Positions 30,923 through 41,911 of a stretch of 45,259 bases of DNA are shown one piece after another. The translations under genes were made by a program, and so were the position numbers. Location: contig JARYLJ010000013.1 in NCBI GenBank assembly GCA_029907705.1, positions 1-45,259 on the forward strand, given 5' to 3'. A model generated the notes under the pieces. It saw nothing but the letters and a program-made list of their open reading frames with translations, was not told the origin of the DNA and did not search any database. Position 1 is the stretch's first letter. Each line of letters starts with the position of its first letter. This stretch comes from Methanomicrobiales archaeon (GTDB lineage: Archaea; Halobacteriota; Methanomicrobia; Methanomicrobiales; JACTUA01).

Positions 30923-31528
30923 ATGGTAAATAGCGGGGGGATTATAATAAAATCAGCCTTCTGGATTGTTATAGCTCTGATTCTGTCCTCATTGTGCTCC
31001 GCCTGTATTTCGAATGATCGGGAGAGAGGAACCGAATTGGCACAGGGCACTCCACAGGGAATCGAGGAGTTACCAGAAGGGGGCTCCCAGTTCTATTCAT
31101 TGCAGGATGCAGTTACCGCACTTCAATGGTATACAGAAAATGAAAATATCGATATTTCCTCCCTCATTATATATTCGATACATGGCTCGTATACGAATAT
31201 CGAAGGGAGAGCGGAAGAATGGCTGTTCGGTGTGGAGGCCGGAGGAGATCCCTACATCATCATCTTCTCCGATGGCGAATGGACGAAAAACCGATGGGGT
31301 GAACGTTTCGAGACCAAAAGCATCAATATCGACGAGATCATCCCACCGGAGGATCTTTTCAGAAACAACAGGGATAAGATCATGGAATTGATGAACGGGA
31401 CGGGAACCGATACGATCGTACTGGACATTGTGGATGACAAGGCGATAATTGCAGCGATATCCGGAGAGGGATTTAGACAGCTGATCCTGAATGCATACAC
31501 AGGGGAGGTGATCGTATCGGACGTATGA
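30923..31528 (+). CDS. Putative lipoprotein, first gene of a pilin-like operon
   Basis: A 201-residue protein with a signal segment (residues 10-27: SAFWIVIALILSSLCSAC) ending in a lipobox-like L-C-S-A-C, so Cys-anchored export is likely. The mature protein, of mixed alpha/beta type (YSLQDAVTALQWYTENENI..., ILNAYTGEVIVSDV), resembles a PepSY-like or small ligand-binding fold only loosely; I do not recognise a family. ATG 30923 is about 20 bp after TATATTTC in an A/T-rich promoter, so translation may be leaderless. It overlaps the next gene by 4 bp (ATGA) and starts an operon of surface-located proteins. Confidence 0.7.
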   Translation: MVNSGGIIIKSAFWIVIALILSSLCSACISNDRERGTELAQGTPQGIEELPEGGSQFYSLQDAVTALQWYTENENIDISSLIIYSIHGSYTNIEGRAEEWLFGVEAGGDPYIIIFSDGEWTKNRWGERFETKSINIDEIIPPEDLFRNNRDKIMELMNGTGTDTIVLDIVDDKAIIAAISGEGFRQLILNAYTGEVIVSDV

Positions 31529-32652
31529 ATGGGAATAACGGAGAAGAGGGGCAGCTCTCCATCGATTTTCTCATAGGGTTCACCATCTTCATGCTCGGAC
31601 TCATCATGGTTGCAAACATGATACCGGGCCTCATGGTGGGGTTGAGGAGGACAACAGCCATAGATTACGACGCGGTGGCATATCGCACAGGTGCCATTCT
31701 GGTGGAGGATCCGGGCTGGCCACTGAACCCAATGTGGGCCACCCTGAACAATTACAGTATCCAGCGTTTCGGGCTCGCCATCGACAGGGAGACACCGAAC
31801 GTGCTCTCGAGGCTCAAAATCAATAAATTCTTCGGTAAGGATATCGTGCTCGTTTATCCCGATGATTACAGGAGCCGGCTCGTCTTCAGCGATTACCCCT
31901 ATCACCTGAATATCACGATGACAGAGCCAGGCAACAGTTACAGTGTCGGAGAACCACTTCCCGACCTGAACCTGAGCGGCTACGGGTATATCCGCCGGGT
32001 GGTGAGGATCAAGGAGTACCCATACGCAGAGCTCAATCTGAACGAATCTTATATGAGTAATTATTGCGTAAACAGCACTGCAGCCAATGCGACACAGAAC
32101 TTCACCATACGCATGGATTTCTCCAAATTTTTAGTAAAAAATTTGAGCCCCGCATATCAGTTCAACCCCCAACTGGAGCCAATTAATATTACCATTTACA
32201 ATTTCGGCTCCAAATTGAACAATACTGGAAACGATACAATGGGCTGGCTCTTCAACGGAAGCTGCCATGCGGCCTCACCTGAAGATTGGGAAAACGCAAA
32301 TCTGACACCACCTGACAACGCGACGCTCAAGAGTATCAGTTTCTGGAAGAACGGAGCCGGTCTTCCAGTACCTAATGTGAGCCAGTATAATCTAACTGTA
32401 TCGGGGATCAAAAACACCAACCCATTATCAAATCTGAATCAGACATTACGCCATAATGATACATTGTCATTTATCCTCTATTCTGGCGTATTTCCACTCG
32501 ACGAATCTACGATTATGGATGTCGTATTTACCTTCCAGGACACTCCCCCGAGGACCCTGATCAACGGGACATACGAGATCGATTACAATAAGGACGGTGT
32601 TCTGAAAATGCCTGATTTACGCGAAGGCTGGCTGGAGGTGGCCGTATGGTGA
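31525..32652 (+). CDS. Pilin-like surface protein with many N-glycosylation sequons
   Basis: A 375-residue protein with a type IV pilin-like N-terminus: EEGQLSIDFLIGFTIFMLGLIMVANMIPGLMVG, a short charged leader before a 20-residue hydrophobic helix. The long extracellular part is rich in Asn-X-Ser/Thr sites (more than ten, such as NSTAANATQNFT, NATL, NVSQYNLT, NQTL and NGTY), expected of a glycosylated archaeal surface protein. Its middle (about 32050-32500) is richer in A/T than its surroundings. I relate it to the pilin-like clusters with DUF7287-DUF7289 members in haloarchaea and methanogens; the individual family is uncertain. It overlaps both neighbours. Confidence 0.75.
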   Translation: MNGNNGEEGQLSIDFLIGFTIFMLGLIMVANMIPGLMVGLRRTTAIDYDAVAYRTGAILVEDPGWPLNPMWATLNNYSIQRFGLAIDRETPNVLSRLKINKFFGKDIVLVYPDDYRSRLVFSDYPYHLNITMTEPGNSYSVGEPLPDLNLSGYGYIRRVVRIKEYPYAELNLNESYMSNYCVNSTAANATQNFTIRMDFSKFLVKNLSPAYQFNPQLEPINITIYNFGSKLNNTGNDTMGWLFNGSCHAASPEDWENANLTPPDNATLKSISFWKNGAGLPVPNVSQYNLTVSGIKNTNPLSNLNQTLRHNDTLSFILYSGVFPLDESTIMDVVFTFQDTPPRTLINGTYEIDYNKDGVLKMPDLREGWLEVAVW

Positions 32653-33173
32653 ACAGTGAGGGGCAGTTCTACACGATGGAAGGCATCGCAGCGGCAGTGC
32701 TGATGGTGATCACCGCCTCGCTGGTGATGAGCACCACCAGCATCTACACATCCGGGGATACGCACATACAGGACATGCAGCTGGAGCTGCTGGGCAACGA
32801 TGCGCTGAAGGTGATGGATACGCCCAAGGCGGCAGGGGCCAATTCCACCCTCGAGGAACTTGTCAGAGATTGGAATAATACTGAATTCAATAATGAATTC
32901 AACCTTTCCATCAACGAGAAAGGAATCAACGAGAGAGGATTTGGAAACCTCTATTATACCTCGAATGTTTTTTATATTAACAAAACAGGGGTCGTTCGGG
33001 ATAAACTATTCTCTTATTCCCGTACGTATTTCGGAAATCCGAATGCGGTGAGGGTGACAAGATGGGTCTTTGTAGGTTCAAATGCCCCGATTGATGGTAT
33101 CGGTCAATTTTCAGATTTTAACAGAACACGCAACCAGACCGTCCTGCTGGAGGTGCTGATATGGCGCGAGTAG
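32646..33173 (+). CDS. Pilin-like protein, DUF7288-like
   Basis: A 175-residue protein beginning MVNSEGQFYTMEGIAAAVLMVITASLVMS, the EGQxYTxEG-then-helix opening I associate with DUF7288-type archaeal pilin-like proteins, followed by an Asn-rich extracellular part with NST, NLS, NKT, NRT and NQT sequons. The ATG at 32646 lies within the end of the preceding gene and follows a perfect GGAGGTG, so it is tightly coupled. It ends overlapping the next frame by 13 bp. Probable role: a minor pilin or membrane-anchored surface subunit. Confidence 0.78.
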   Translation: MVNSEGQFYTMEGIAAAVLMVITASLVMSTTSIYTSGDTHIQDMQLELLGNDALKVMDTPKAAGANSTLEELVRDWNNTEFNNEFNLSINEKGINERGFGNLYYTSNVFYINKTGVVRDKLFSYSRTYFGNPNAVRVTRWVFVGSNAPIDGIGQFSDFNRTRNQTVLLEVLIWRE

Positions 33174-33559
33174 ACGACAGCGGGCAATGGATCGTGCTGA
33201 TGGGCATCATGGTCAGCATCGCCCTCTTCTTCCTCGCCTTTCTCCTGAACCAGTCGACACTCGTCGGAATGACGACGGCGGAGAGCGTGCTGGAGTTCCC
33301 AAAGAACGAGATACAGGATCTGAGAAGCGAGGTCTTTCGTTGGGCGGAGCGTTACGAGGATCTTCCCCCTTCGGAGAAGGGCAACGCACTGAGGGACATC
33401 AGCATTTTGGCCAGGTCACGGAAGAGTGCAGAAGTGTATTTTAAGGTTGAATCACAGGTGAATGCGAGTGGATATTTGTACTTCCCGATTACGATTCATT
33501 ACAACAACGGAGTGACGGAGTATCATGAAAATACGACCTATTACATATCGGGTGAGTGA
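33161..33559 (+). CDS. Single-pass membrane protein of the pilin-like operon
   Basis: A 132-residue protein: a short N-terminus (MARVDDSGQW), one hydrophobic helix at about residues 11-30 (IVLMGIMVSIALFFLAFLLNQ) and a soluble exterior with NAS and NTT sequons. The helix directly after DDSGQ-W follows the pattern of archaeal type III signal-like pilins. GGAGGTG precedes the ATG. No family name can be given with confidence; it belongs with its four pilin-like neighbours by position and topology. Confidence 0.72.
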   Translation: MARVDDSGQWIVLMGIMVSIALFFLAFLLNQSTLVGMTTAESVLEFPKNEIQDLRSEVFRWAERYEDLPPSEKGNALRDISILARSRKSAEVYFKVESQVNASGYLYFPITIHYNNGVTEYHENTTYYISGE

Positions 33560-33560
33560 T

Positions 33561-33989
33561 ATGGCGCCTTCGGAAGAGGGGCTCACCACCCTGATCGAGT
33601 ACATCTCCATCAGCGGAATACTCCTGCTGCTCATGGTGATGATGATGTTCACCGTGAACGATGTCTTCATGGAGGGGCCGGCGAACACACTCGCCTATCA
33701 TGCCTTCACCGACATCGGTAACGGGATCAGCACGAGGGTGGTGGATATATATCTGATCGCACCCTACGACGGGACGATCGACTCGAAATTCGATATCCCG
33801 GATGACGTTGCCGGCAGGGATTATTTCGTGAAGGCATTGAATACCGGAACTGATCAGGTGATCGAGGTGAGACGCGGGGATATCTTCAGCCACATATCGA
33901 TCGCAGGGATCGGTGCCTCCAAAGGCGTCGTCGGTGAAACAACCGGTGGCGGGTGGAACAGGATCATGTACAATTCGAAGGGGTTCTGA
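33561..33989 (+). CDS. Membrane-anchored protein of the pilin-like operon
   Basis: A 142-residue protein with an N-terminal acidic stretch and a hydrophobic helix (about residues 13-33: ISISGILLLLMVMMMFTVNDV), then a soluble domain (DIGNGISTRVVDIYLIAPYDGTIDSKFDIPDDVAGRDYFV). This order, with STRVVDIYLIAP, is familiar from pilin-like operons of methanogens and haloarchaea (DUF7266/DUF7289-type clusters). ATG 33561, one base after the preceding stop, is preceded by GGTGAGTGAT; an upstream start in the frame (33525) would overlap more. Confidence 0.72.
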   Translation: MAPSEEGLTTLIEYISISGILLLLMVMMMFTVNDVFMEGPANTLAYHAFTDIGNGISTRVVDIYLIAPYDGTIDSKFDIPDDVAGRDYFVKALNTGTDQVIEVRRGDIFSHISIAGIGASKGVVGETTGGGWNRIMYNSKGF

Positions 33990-33991
33990 GC

Positions 33992-34795
33992 ATGCATAAA
34001 AGAAGGAGTTCTGTCGGGCATTCGAGAGAGGCTGGTGTCTCCGAGTCGATCGGGTTCGTCATCATCTTTTCGCTGGTGATGGTTGGTATAGGACTGATTA
34101 CACTTTATGGTTATCCGCTTTTACTGAAACAGCAGAGCGTCACGAACGTTCGCAACATGGAGAGGGACATGATCATCCTGCAGAACGATGTGAAGAGCCT
34201 CGTGTATAAGAATATACCATACAAGGAGACGTCTCTGCAGGTGGCAGGGGGTTCGCTCACCGTATATGGTTACGGTTTATCGGGATATACGGCTAGTTTC
34301 ACGATAAAGATCATTAATGAGGCAGATTCAACCGATTATCTTGAGATCGAAGAGAATGCCATCGGTCAGCTTCGTTACGAATCAGATTCGTTGGACGATA
34401 TTATCGCACTCGAGAACGGTGCCGTGCTGAGAAGGCAGAAGTTTTCTCAGGGTTCTGCAATGCTGGCGGAGCCCAGATGGTATATTGACAAAGTTGAAGG
34501 AAATGAAACCATCGTGATAAACCTGATTAACATCAGTTCGGATACGGTCAGATCGAGGACTGGTGTCGGGACGGTGAAGATGGCCCTGAAAGATGTCTGG
34601 TATAACGAAACACCGTTGGGATTCTGGAAGGTCGAGATTGAATACCACCCGGAGACTGAATACGACTTCTCGGTCGCATGGCAGAATTATCTGACAAACA
34701 CGCTCGGTCTGACAAAGTCAGGGTCCATATATTCAAAGGATGGATTGGAACGCGTCGTTATCAAGAGGTACGAGATCTCGATAGAAAGCCTTTAG
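33992..34795 (+). CDS. DUF7289-like archaeal pilin-type protein
   Basis: A 267-residue protein with the classic archaeal pilin core: REAGVSESIGFVIIFSLVMVGIGLITLYGYPLLL (about residues 13-45), an AVSEVIGF-type motif leading into a long helix, then a beta-rich extracellular domain (LQVAGGSLTVYGYGLSGYTASFTIKI...). VSESIGF in place of AVSE is a modest variation. ATG 33992 is preceded by GGGG-TTCTGAGC. It is the last gene of the operon and ends at 34795; no assembly ATPase or membrane platform gene (TadA/TadC type) is encoded in the window, so these must lie elsewhere. Confidence 0.78.
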   Translation: MHKRRSSVGHSREAGVSESIGFVIIFSLVMVGIGLITLYGYPLLLKQQSVTNVRNMERDMIILQNDVKSLVYKNIPYKETSLQVAGGSLTVYGYGLSGYTASFTIKIINEADSTDYLEIEENAIGQLRYESDSLDDIIALENGAVLRRQKFSQGSAMLAEPRWYIDKVEGNETIVINLINISSDTVRSRTGVGTVKMALKDVWYNETPLGFWKVEIEYHPETEYDFSVAWQNYLTNTLGLTKSGSIYSKDGLERVVIKRYEISIESL

Positions 34796-35868: not shown

Positions 35869-37161
35869 TCATATGGGCCTGTGGCGCCCCCACTTCTCCA
35901 GCGCCTCCCGCAGCTCTCTCGAATGTGTTGCCCGCTCCTCGAGCGTTTCACCTGCTTTCCAGGCTTCTATCGCCTCCATGGCGGCGATCGCGCCCGCACG
36001 TGTCCCCCGCGGGTGGCCATGAATGCCCCCGCTCACGAGCAATACGATATCCTTACCATAGATATCCAGCACATCTGGCACGAGACCGGGATGCAGTCCT
36101 CCTGAAGAGACCGGAAAGACGTTTTTGAGCCCATTCCACTCCTGTTCGAGTAGCATCCCCGGTACAGGCTTCGTGTGCGGTTCCCTCAGCACCTCTGCGA
36201 GCATCCCCACCTCTCTCTTCGTCCCCGCAAGTTTGCCCACCGCTGTCCCCGAATGGATCTGGCTCACACCGATGAGGCGCATCAGCTTCGCCAGAAACTG
36301 CATGCTGATTCCATGCCTGGGATTCCGGTTGAATGCCGCATGCATCGCGCGATGGGCGTGAATCGCGAGCCCCAGGTCAGAGCAGTGATCCCTCATGGTC
36401 ATCACCCCCGCTGTACCGGCGACGACCACATCGATCATCGCATATTTCCAACCATAATCCGCAAGTATTTGAGCCCTCCTCTTCATGGTCTCCGTATCGG
36501 CGGTGATATTGATGAGGGCGGATTTTACCTCCCCCGTTTCTTTTTCCGCTTTCTCGCGCATCTTGGCGAGGAGCCTCACACGATCCTCGAACCGGTTGAA
36601 GGACGTGGAGGTCAGGTTCTCATCGTCCTTGACCAGATCGAAGCCGCCCATCCAGGTTTCGTAACCGATCTCCGCATGCTCCTCCGCGGTAAATCCGATC
36701 TTGGGTTTCGGGACTGCACCGGTGAGTGGCCTGTCCTTGACCTTCATCATCCTCCTGATTCCATCGATTCCGAAGTGAGGCCCCCTGAAGTGCCTGATAT
36801 AGGCGGCCGGCAATCGGGCGTCCTGCAGGCGGAGCGATTTCACCGCCTTCATCCCGAAGATATTGCCGGCGATGCCGCTCATCAGCTGCACGGCGTTACC
36901 CTCCTCCCAGAGGTCGAGCGGGTATGCAATCTTCACATATTTGCCCCCGATCTCGAATGCCTTCGCCTGGAGATCCTTCATACGGGGAGGCAGGGTGAAG
37001 AGCGTCGTCCATGTGCCCGTCGAGCTCTCTGAAGCAATCCTTCCCGCCGCCTCCTCTCTGCTGATCCCCCTGGCCGGTTCGAAGTAGTAGAGGCAGACGA
37101 TCTCGTTCTCAGCCGGGTGGTGATTCAGATCAACAAAATCCATGTACCAGTCTGTACTCAT
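35869..37161 (-). CDS. rbcL: Ribulose-bisphosphate carboxylase, archaeal form III
   Basis: Fixes CO2 onto ribulose bisphosphate, in archaea usually within AMP/nucleoside salvage rather than a Calvin cycle. The 430-residue protein keeps all catalytic residues: Lys152 in TGAVPKPKIGF, the carbamylated Lys178 with Asp180-Glu181 in GGFDLVKDDENL, His in HAHRAMHAAF, loop 6 Lys in HSGTAVGKLAG and SGGIHGHPRG. It is therefore an active RuBisCO, not a RuBisCO-like protein. Form III is inferred from the archaeal setting and wording of these motifs. No AMP phosphorylase or ribose-1,5-bisphosphate isomerase gene is next to it. It is divergent from tRNA-Gln. Confidence 0.96.
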   Translation of the reverse strand: MSTDWYMDFVDLNHHPAENEIVCLYYFEPARGISREEAAGRIASESSTGTWTTLFTLPPRMKDLQAKAFEIGGKYVKIAYPLDLWEEGNAVQLMSGIAGNIFGMKAVKSLRLQDARLPAAYIRHFRGPHFGIDGIRRMMKVKDRPLTGAVPKPKIGFTAEEHAEIGYETWMGGFDLVKDDENLTSTSFNRFEDRVRLLAKMREKAEKETGEVKSALINITADTETMKRRAQILADYGWKYAMIDVVVAGTAGVMTMRDHCSDLGLAIHAHRAMHAAFNRNPRHGISMQFLAKLMRLIGVSQIHSGTAVGKLAGTKREVGMLAEVLREPHTKPVPGMLLEQEWNGLKNVFPVSSGGLHPGLVPDVLDIYGKDIVLLVSGGIHGHPRGTRAGAIAAMEAIEAWKAGETLEERATHSRELREALEKWGRHRPI

Positions 37162-37288: not shown

Positions 37289-37361
37289 ACCCCCGTAGTG
37301 TAGCGGTCAATCATACCGGCCTTTGGAGCCGGTGACGGCGGTTCGAATCCGCCCGGGGGTA
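37289..37361 (+). tRNA. trnQ: tRNA-Gln (anticodon TTG)
   Basis: The acceptor stem ACCCCCG pairs with CGGGGGT (37354-37360), with discriminator A at 37361. The D-arm region has the archaeal tRNA-Gln wording GTGTAGCGGTCAATCAT. The anticodon stem CCGGC/GCCGG encloses CTTTGGA, giving anticodon TTG. The T-arm is GGCGG-TTCGAAT-CCGCC. There is no variable-arm extension or visible intron; CCA is not encoded. Confidence 0.96.
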
Positions 37362-40786: not shown

Positions 40787-40812
40787 TTTCATATAGCAAC
40801 ATATGGTTTATG
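40787..40812 (+). repeat. Left copy of a 26-bp inverted repeat flanking the recombinase gene
   Basis: Begins TTTCATATAGCAAC and ends GGTTTATG; the reverse complement occurs, without a mismatch, at 42293-42318. The core CATAT-AGCAAC-ATATG (40790-40805) is a 5-bp dyad around a 6-bp spacer, the size expected for a tyrosine-recombinase crossover site. The stop codon of the recombinase gene (40808-40810) lies within this copy. Confidence 0.85.
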
Positions 40813-41761
40813 GGCCCCTTTCACCATCCTTCCCTCTGCCCTCTCCTGTGCCGTTATTCCCCGAGAGGGGGAAGAACTCACGGTATATCCTTTTTCTCTC
40901 CTCGAGGTCGGTATGCAGGTATATCTCGGTCGTTTTAATCGAGGAATGGCCGAGATTCTCCTGAAGGACCTTCAGATTTTTTGATCTCCTGTAGAGTTCG
41001 CTCGCATAGCTGTGCCTGATCTTATGCGGGGTAATCCCTTTCGGGGCATATTTGGAGAAGATATGCTGAACGGTCCTCCTCGAGATATTCTTATGGTTCT
41101 GACCAAAAAAGAGCGGCCCCTCGCTCCGACCTTCGAGATATGTTGTTATTTCCGAGAGAGTGTCGGGATCGATGAATACGATTCTGAATTTACCACCTTT
41201 TCCCTTGATTTTGACGATCTGCTCCTCGAAATCGATATCCTCCACGTTTATGCTGCAGAGCTCCGAGACCCTCACCCCTGTGGCATAGATAATGCGGACG
41301 ATGAGGCGATCCCTTGTATCGTCTATGGAATTGATGAGCGAGAGAACCTGATCGTGTTTGAGATATATCAGAGCATTCTCCTTTATTTTCGGTCTCTCCA
41401 CTGCAATAACCGGATTTGCGGAAACTGCCCCCTGTGTATATAAAAATTTGTAAAATGAGGATAAAGTGGAGATGATTCTCCGGAGTGTTCTCGGTTTGTA
41501 GGTCTTCAGGGATGTGATGAATGAGAGGTAATCGTTGAAAAAGAGGCTCGGGACGTTGATATCCACGTCCATCCTTGCTTTGGTCAGGTCCTTCCAGTAG
41601 ATAACGAGTTTTTCTGGGTTCGCATGTTTTCTGAGCCAGGCATAATGGGCAAATGTCCTGATCACCCCCTGATATGTTTCGATTGTCCTCTGGGAATAAT
41701 TTCTCATGCGGAGGTGATGGAGAAATCTCGGGAGCCATTCTGAAAAATAGCCATTTTTCAT
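40808..41761 (-). CDS. Tyrosine recombinase (XerA/integrase type)
   Basis: A 317-residue site-specific recombinase. An N-terminal SAM-like core-binding domain (about 5-115, WLPRFLHHLRMRNYSQRTIETYQGVIRTF) precedes the catalytic domain with all active residues: Arg in ATGVRVSELCSIN, Lys in GKGGKFR, His-x-x-Arg in TPHKIRHSYASEL, His in LGHSSIKTT and the nucleophile Tyr in TEIYLHTDL. ATG 41761 is preferred to TTG 41782. It ends inside the left 26-bp repeat, and the right repeat lies 530 bp upstream of it. The sites are inverted, so recombination between them would flip the gene with its neighbourhood. It could instead be a chromosome-dimer XerA, but archaeal XerA genes are not normally framed by such sites. 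Confidence 0.93.
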   Translation of the reverse strand: MKNGYFSEWLPRFLHHLRMRNYSQRTIETYQGVIRTFAHYAWLRKHANPEKLVIYWKDLTKARMDVDINVPSLFFNDYLSFITSLKTYKPRTLRRIISTLSSFYKFLYTQGAVSANPVIAVERPKIKENALIYLKHDQVLSLINSIDDTRDRLIVRIIYATGVRVSELCSINVEDIDFEEQIVKIKGKGGKFRIVFIDPDTLSEITTYLEGRSEGPLFFGQNHKNISRRTVQHIFSKYAPKGITPHKIRHSYASELYRRSKNLKVLQENLGHSSIKTTEIYLHTDLEERKRIYREFFPLSGNNGTGEGRGKDGERGP

Positions 41762-41911
41762 GACCAGATTTCTAATTGTCAAAAGATATTAAATTTTGCA
41801 CCAAATCTCTATTCTGTGTAAAAACACAGGAACAGGATCGTAAAACATCCACTTCGATTACATTCATAACCTCTTAAGGTTGCACAAACGAAAATGAACA
41901 GGAGATCCATA

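Follow-up and report, generated by a model that had tools for sequence, protein, structure and literature searches.

Multi-pilin gene sets of the kind treated here are already known in Archaea: related sets were described in 2016 by Makarova, Koonin and Albers, who assigned to the PilB4-type euryarchaeal system its own pilin set (clade 2) including arCOG03926 (major) and arCOG02911 (minor) pilins, and according to whom pilins with genes at other loci can be substrates of an ATPase/TadC module (PMC4858521). In Haloferax volcanii, PilB1-C1 goes with clade-2 pilins and PilB3-C3, encoded in a pilin-less ATPase/TadC locus, acts on PilA adhesion pilins encoded elsewhere (PMC6491452). The stretch analysed here, hereafter the window, comprises the 45,259 nucleotides (nt) of contig JARYLJ010000013.1 (assembly GCA_029907705.1, positions 1 to 45,259 of the forward strand) from a Methanomicrobiales archaeon, and carries at 30923-34795 six open reading frames (ORFs), all on the + strand. 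Gene 1 encodes a non-pilin product with a putative lipoprotein-like leader, and genes 2-6, hereafter the cassette, encode five different predicted type IV prepilins, two of them with pilin-like models. We consider it rather probable that the cassette is a minor-pilin module, detached from a machine encoded on another contig (C16), which primes or caps a pilus.

The locus is like the PilB4-type set in combining a multi-pilin set of the same kind with an ATPase/TadC machine (as described in the excerpts of PMC4858521), and haloarchaeal sets of the order DUF7287-DUF7288-(DUF7261)-DUF7266-DUF7289 directly adjoin TadA/TadC. It differs from that set in being separate from its machine, in the lipoprotein gene in front and in a DUF7287 protein of 375 amino acids (aa) as compared to 145-231 aa in seven haloarchaeal-type loci. 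The C16 machine resembles PilB3-C3 in its pilin-less locus and in the PilB3_C domain of its ATPase, whereas the PilA substrates of PilB3-C3 (PMC6491452) are unlike the five window families, which do not match Pilin_N. In the literature searched, no paper names DUF7287, DUF7288 or DUF7289 (the supplementary tables of PMC4858521 may list these loci), arCOG02911 and arCOG03926 occur in PMC4858521 only, and among the papers listed in searches for archaeal tip complexes no title or abstract opening claims one. With the present proposal, five Pfam families of unknown function are given a shared role open to test, a matching motor is named and archaeal pili gain a candidate for a tip module.

A conserved cassette of five predicted prepilins

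The six genes are arranged as follows.

30923..31528, + strand: gene 1 (P0001), putative lipoprotein-like leader LSSLCSAC read from the sequence, start codon uncertain
31525..32652, + strand: gene 2 (P0002), predicted DUF7287 prepilin, 375 aa, 19 sequons
32646..33173, + strand: gene 3 (P0003), predicted DUF7288 prepilin, 175 aa
33161..33559, + strand: gene 4 (P0004), predicted DUF7261-like prepilin, 132 aa, lacking the usual N-terminal acidic residue
33561..33989, + strand: gene 5 (P0005), predicted DUF7266-like prepilin, 142 aa
33992..34795, + strand: gene 6 (P0006), predicted DUF7289 prepilin, 267 aa

An earlier, sequence-only reading had proposed an operon of a lipoprotein gene and five overlapping genes for pilin-like subunits. 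The gene set stands, but only the first three junctions overlap (by 4, 7 and 13 nt) and the last two abut with gaps of 1 and 2 nt. Pfam cut-offs were exceeded by gene 2 (DUF7287, 1.1e-7), gene 3 (DUF7288, 4.6e-14) and gene 6 (DUF7289, 3.2e-22), thus recovering three of the families DUF7286-DUF7289 suggested for comparison in that reading, whereas DUF7286 gave no match at E up to 10 among the six proteins. Single-sequence matches below the cut-off connect gene 4 with DUF7261 (0.1) and gene 5 with DUF7266 (0.011). Profile-profile comparison with four DUF7266-position proteins of haloarchaeal-type cassettes gave a probability of 96% over the length of gene 5, and 13 of the 14 members of the gene-5 family, all but the window copy, reach E 0.01 or better against DUF7266. 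For gene 4, comparison with four DUF7261-position proteins of such cassettes reached 87.5% in the N-terminal part, with 3/18 family members matching DUF7261 singly. Gene 1 has no Pfam or NCBIfam family match, and none of the six proteins matched NCBIfam or, at E up to 10, Pilin_N (PF07790), which is matched at nine other places in the genome, including four on contig C33 and two on C43. Domains of ordinary secreted enzymes had been named beforehand as evidence that would overturn the pilin-like reading; no enzyme family was found over its cut-off in Pfam or NCBIfam for any of the six proteins, and a secreted-enzyme reading was rejected on this ground.

The pilin-like character of the five subunits is borne out by their N-termini. 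All five families (61-73 rows each) have a class III-type signal, consisting of a short leader, glycine or alanine at -1 and a hydrophobic stretch, the only deviation at -1 being a single serine in gene 6; the prepilin cleavage positions are predicted from these features. The N-terminal type differs between subunits and is kept within each subunit family, with D at +5 in 61/61 sequences for gene 2, E at +6 in 66/66 for gene 3 and in 64/72 for gene 5, no acidic residue and QW following the -1 glycine or alanine in 70/70 for gene 4, and E at +3 in 73/73 for gene 6, where VSE follows the -1 residue in 72/73. Single-chain AlphaFold models, which cover genes 2 and 6, are confident and pilin-like: that of gene 2 has an N-terminal helix (8-42) and beta domains (predicted local distance difference test, pLDDT, 84.0; predicted template-modelling score, pTM, 0.77), and that of gene 6 a helix (11-72) followed by a beta-rich head (pLDDT 92.9, pTM 0.83). 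Among matches of these models to solved structures, those from Foldseek were set aside as chance-level. The best VIA-align 2 Z values were 6.2 for gene 2 (residues 164-338, to other kinds of protein) and 2.6 for gene 6. Residues 162-341 of the gene 2 model resemble, at Z 6, Clostridium perfringens enterotoxin in its C-terminal domain, a likeness that was put down to a widespread beta-sandwich arrangement and given no functional reading.

Relatives were collected by scanning named genomes with the gene-5 alignment, a scan that rested on one short peptide pattern and yielded 72 loci, whose titles name Methanomicrobiales or its genera or families, except for four given just as 'Euryarchaeota archaeon'. 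Genes 2-6 are ordered alike in 63/72 loci and the other nine are truncated, as they open partway through the cassette where a contig ends or close to it, so that the lack of co-occurrence in relatives which would have spoken against an operon was not seen. Gene 1 relatives precede the cassette in 50/72 loci. These counts use stop-to-stop frames, as simple gene calling missed genes in three loci (L046, L059 and L062); in L100 gene 1 is listed after gene 2 solely since the gene-2 frame opens further upstream. In none of the 72 stretches (3-12 kb each) was TadA, TadC, FlaI, FlaJ or prepilin peptidase matched.

Three perfect GGAGGTG ribosome-binding sites precede cassette genes, instead of the two noted originally.

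31504..31510, + strand: GGAGGTG before gene 2, kept in 1/42 relatives
32634..32640, + strand: GGAGGTG before gene 3, within the end of gene 2, kept in 34/64 relatives
33149..33155, + strand: GGAGGTG before gene 4, within the end of gene 3, kept in 52/68 relatives

Before gene 6 the motif occurs in 2/70 relatives. These counts took, for each gene, whichever start had the best site, which favours finding a site, and GGAGGTG is common in the whole window (17 on the + and 12 on the - strand). Matches to sigma-70-type promoters were disregarded as not meaningful, the host being an archaeon.

The candidate machine on contig C16

The genome (1.79 Mb, 98.9% complete) contains both a candidate prepilin peptidase and ATPase/TadC machinery. 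The earlier statement that no assembly ATPase is adjacent holds for the neighbourhood, with no T2SSE or T2SSF match on the window contig (C49) or machine genes in the stretches from relatives, but does not hold for the genome, where a search for the matching ATPase found three ATPase/TadC systems, all on other contigs.

Contig C50: archaellum operon with flagellin, KaiC-type ATPase and CheA-like genes
Contig C57: TadA and fused TadC, adjoined by Pilin_N pilins
Contig C16: TadA-TadC1-TadC2, with Roadblock and MinD/ParA-like genes just upstream (L012:7254-9776)

No pilin gene was recognised in 16.5 kb of the C16 locus, and the candidate prepilin peptidase lies on the same contig some 6.5 kb upstream of TadA-TadC1-TadC2. 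A gene pair further upstream of the C16 TadA is one that we take to be hydrogenase-like.

Presence and absence were compared in 199 genomes of the order, using the gene-5 alignment (A1; 129 positive genomes) as cassette profile, as DUF7289 also catches other pilins, against the C16-type TadC2 and the C57-type TadC. For TadC2 the cut-off was placed at 1e-80 once a gap had become apparent between the weakest strong match (~4e-90) and the strongest weak one (2.3e-69). The cassette is present in 124/160 genomes with a C16-type TadC2 and in 5/39 without. Restricting the comparison to genomes with a completeness of 90% or more (132 genomes) gives 94/115 and 0/17, respectively (Fisher P 2.7e-11, a value that overstates independence because absences clump by genus). 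For the C57-type in the same genomes, the cassette is found in 42/61 with and 52/71 without (P 0.70), and C57 was rejected as the machine on account of this missing association and of the Pilin_N pilins beside it.

A second line of evidence comes from 17 genomes, at least 90% complete, that contain the cassette and no strong C57-type TadC match. An ATPase of neither C16 nor PIN type was read in 16 of them, G112 having none. Two genomes were dropped from the set: G112 due to internal stops in the TadC2 and DUF7288 reads, and G172 due to a second, frame-broken non-archaellum ATPase/TadC set (L263) and an internal stop in TadC2. In the remaining 15 cassette genomes, representing six genera and four families, the T2SSE matches comprise FlaI, next to FlaJ, the ATPase of the C16-type and a weakly matching PIN-type ATPase, so that apart from the archaellum the C16-type is their sole ATPase/TadC system. 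The weak third match was confirmed as a PIN-domain ATPase in the window's own genome, and elsewhere it was judged by size and score. Eight of the genomes, of the genus labelled g9 (probably Methanoculleus, a presumed name), combine the cassette with a single non-archaellum machine and thus make a clean gene-removal test possible. The internal stops of G112 (L249; C1:1229560-1230552), which is a single contig, may be due to an assembly error or reflect a decaying pilus system.

The same pilin families as in the window, with the likeness of gene 4 limited to its N-terminal part, adjoin an ATPase/TadC pair in genomes that we label haloarchaeal from their G+C content and tree position. In four of five such genomes (L076, L077, L079 and L217) a large TadA (830-1326 aa) and a TadC directly adjoin the cassette. 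The neighbours of this pair in the fifth genome (L216) are, on the opposite strand, a DUF7289 gene and four more ORFs, of which three were flagged as pilin-like. In L079 Pfam confirms DUF7287, DUF7288, DUF7266 and DUF7289, and in L076 it confirms DUF7261; gene 4 was not found in L077 and L079. The PilB3_C domain is matched by all five haloarchaeal cassette ATPases at 26.1-41.0 bits, one being just under the 27-bit cut-off, and by the C16 ATPase at 32.3 bits, with no match in the C57 ATPase or FlaI of the window's genome. In the ATPase tree, PilB3-like ATPases form a group different from C16; the tree was dropped as arbiter of the machine, since none of three groupings of the haloarchaeal cassette ATPases was rejected or supported. 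The assignment to C16 is therefore drawn mainly from co-occurrence and single-candidate genomes, because PilB3_C is unspecific and the tree does not favour C16 over other partners of the haloarchaeal ATPases. The suggestion in the sequence-only reading that the subunits rely on a distant machine thus gains support and a named candidate.

Proposed role and competing explanations

According to the proposed mechanism, a prepilin peptidase, for which a candidate exists on C16, would trim the short leaders of the five prepilins, and C16 TadA-TadC1-TadC2, as the co-occurrence suggests, would extract the five pilins from the membrane and assemble them as a fixed heteromeric minor-pilin module priming or capping the pilus. 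The shaft would probably consist of pilins of the PilA-like (Pilin_N) type from other loci of the genome, and DUF7287 would lie outermost, as a glycosylated subunit with an adhesive role. That the cassette products are processed, are minor and not major pilins, are glycosylated, sit at the tip and mediate adhesion is what we infer. A minor role is favoured because of the fixed order with one of each subunit, the nine Pilin_N places as shaft candidates and the features of DUF7287 that suit an exposed subunit.

DUF7287 is perhaps the exposed subunit in view of its sequons, its divergent C-terminal part and a domain fusion in one relative. Among the proteins described earlier as heavily supplied with N-glycosylation sequons, DUF7287 clearly qualifies, with 19 sequons as compared to 4.8 expected and none of 2000 composition-preserving shuffles reaching 19. 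Genes 3 (6 versus 2.7, P 0.033) and 4 (3 versus 1.0, P 0.058) are unconvincing, because one of seven control window genes reached P 0.017, and the shuffle comparison revealed no enrichment in genes 1, 5 and 6. Mean identity of DUF7287 in 54 sequence sets, an average leaving out three loci with long DUF7287, is 0.318 in the C-terminal part versus 0.568 in the N-terminal part. In L125 (L125:1347-5114), from a Methanomicrobiales sediment genome, two PKD, two DUF2341 and two Laminin_G_3 domains follow DUF7287 in the same reading frame, making a protein of 1256 aa. Further long forms are found in L121, L133 and L113 (527, 549 and 441 aa), that of L133 having a sub-threshold Reelin_subrepeat-B match at its end. 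Pfam recognised no lectin domain in the window's own DUF7287. Mature DUF7287 is mostly near 350 residues long, and exceeds 500 in 3/59 loci (521, 543 and 1250). General length variability of DUF7287 was rejected, as the coefficient of variation falls from 0.33 to 0.053 without L125, L121 and L133.

The last strand of DUF7287 and DUF7288 also tends to have a tryptophan close to the C-terminus ([LV]EVxxW), in many relatives and in most of the haloarchaeal forms covered. In the window these ends (32634-32652 and 33149-33173) overlie the start codon of the gene that follows and its ribosome-binding site. That the conserved LEVxxW of DUF7287 is merely the overlapping ribosome-binding site and start of gene 3 was rejected as the sole explanation, because the corresponding VVEVAVW of L125 stays mid-protein without a start codon there.

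Bacterial minor-pilin tip modules include FimU-PilV-PilW-PilX. Other such modules are GspH-I-J-K and PilC/PilY1 (excerpts of PMC4471445), and the cassette is like them in being a fixed set of different pilins with a subunit able to carry grafted domains, as in L125, but unlike them in that no sequence or solved-structure match was found by Pfam, Foldseek (E <= 0.001) or VIA-align 2. The minor pilin PilC of Streptococcus sanguinis has a grafted lectin module at what is proposed to be a tip (PMC9934059), DUF2341 is found in PilY-type adhesins for which a tip location has been deduced (PMC4858521), and in Methanococcus maripaludis a transformation screen hit a DUF2341 gene that lies among pilus genes (PMC10133366). 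A tentative extension, to which we give less than even chances, is that the cassette represents an archaeal equivalent of the bacterial tip or priming complex, a five-subunit, detached plug-in tip found from methanogens to haloarchaea with DUF7287 as adhesin carrier. If so, DUF7287 may have gained lectin, PKD and DUF2341 domains in some lineages, and a role in DNA uptake would also be conceivable. The exposure and tip features of DUF7287 are convergent hints, as distinct from proof of a tip location, and our estimate for the tip was lowered slightly because of the drop in its coefficient of variation.

A number of observations weigh against the minor-pilin module and its assignment to C16. No solved structure is matched by the gene 2 or gene 6 model in Foldseek at E <= 0.001, barring the three long forms DUF7287 is no more variable in length within the order than the other subunits, and no result places any subunit at the tip. 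In five genomes (77-89% complete) the cassette is present although no strong match to C16-type TadC2 is, and the 17 joint absences of cassette and C16-type among genomes at least 90% complete are clumped, with 12 in genus g18, three in g30 and one each in g24 and g9. Conversely, 21/115 genomes have the C16-type machine without a gene-5 match, hence that machine does not always go with the cassette, barring copies too divergent to be matched. Three of these (G041, G076 and G168) retain DUF7288, and some genomes that lack a gene-5 match have weak ones to DUF7289 (1e-4 to 1e-8), which may point to divergent cassettes. About 18 genomes with a C16-type machine thus seem to lack the cassette or to hold one too divergent to detect, and the machine can probably work without it. 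Some haloarchaeal-type cassettes, L074 and L083, lie apart from an ATPase. PilB3_C is unspecific, as it is matched best by pilin-less PilB3-like ATPases, those of three haloarchaeal genomes scoring 80.8-89.5 bits, and a further C57-type ATPase (L203) matches weakly (17.1 bits). In approximately unbiased (AU) tests, grouping the haloarchaeal cassette ATPases with C16 and a neighbouring clade gave p 0.107, with C57 0.189 and with PilB3-like ATPases 0.172. Finally, some archaeal minor pilins are drawn at the base in published models (excerpts of PMC4858521), a point that also serves an alternative considered below.

Among competing explanations, the one that survives best, although unlikely, takes the five subunits as the structural (major and minor) pilins of their own PilB4-type pilus, with one of them forming the shaft, encoded away from their machine. 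It would agree with the assignment of a predicted major pilin of its own to the PilB4-type set (PMC4858521), with the haloarchaeal adjacency of the same families to an ATPase/TadC pair and with the frequent occurrence in relatives of strong ribosome-binding sites ahead of genes 3 and 4. The fixed order with one of each in 63/72 loci, unlike the clustered stand-alone Pilin_N genes, suggests otherwise.

It appears distinctly improbable that, as opposed to an extended pilus tip, the five pilins make up a pseudopilus for secretion or DNA uptake or a short, membrane-bound base of a fibre. Besides the basal minor pilins just mentioned, Methanoculleus thermophilus is naturally transformable and requires a type IV-like pilus for transformation (PMC10133366), and the cassette is common in this genus. 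However, the excerpts of that paper do not link the pilus locus tested to the cassette, and the lectin/PKD/DUF2341 fusion of L125 and the sequon density of DUF7287 suit an outward-facing end. The fibre base of unknown function that had been offered initially as the other option is not needed as an alternative, if still conceivable.

That the cassette is served by any machine of the genome (C16, C57 or the archaellum), the ATPase/TadC modules being interchangeable, is the weakest explanation and can hardly be expected, since, despite the rescue of a pilB1-C1 deletion by PilB3-C3 in Haloferax volcanii (PMC6491452) and the exchange of pilin sets argued in PMC4858521, the cassette is unassociated with C57-type systems and occurs in 15 genomes without any non-archaellum machine other than the C16-type. 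The minor-pilin module served by C16 is the reading that we prefer.

Tandem cassettes and neighbouring genes

The cassette recurs outside Methanomicrobiales, among 20 loci picked for strong DUF7289 matches. Genomes that we presume to be Methanosarcina-like contain tandem cassettes in two or more copies (L080, L081, L082 and L090). Two kinds of cassette, often in tandem, can be distinguished in L080-L082, L090, L091 and L093, one having a long DUF7287 (about 320-330 aa) and a short gene 4 product (about 150-154 aa), and the other, resembling the haloarchaeal form, a short DUF7287 (158-172 aa) and a long gene 4 product (281-296 aa). Giant proteins of 1478-1995 aa adjoin five Methanosarcina-like cassette loci; two of these neighbours were scanned and both contain VWA domains, one of them also Big_1 over its cut-off. 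Within Methanomicrobiales, two gene-5 copies about 6.4 kb apart in L050 (G100) suggest tandem cassettes, with a 991-aa protein upstream.

Two further ORFs of the window are listed here.

35869-37161, - strand: ORF resembling a RuBisCO large-subunit-like protein, adjoining a tRNA-Gln at 37289
40808-41782, - strand: ORF resembling a tyrosine recombinase

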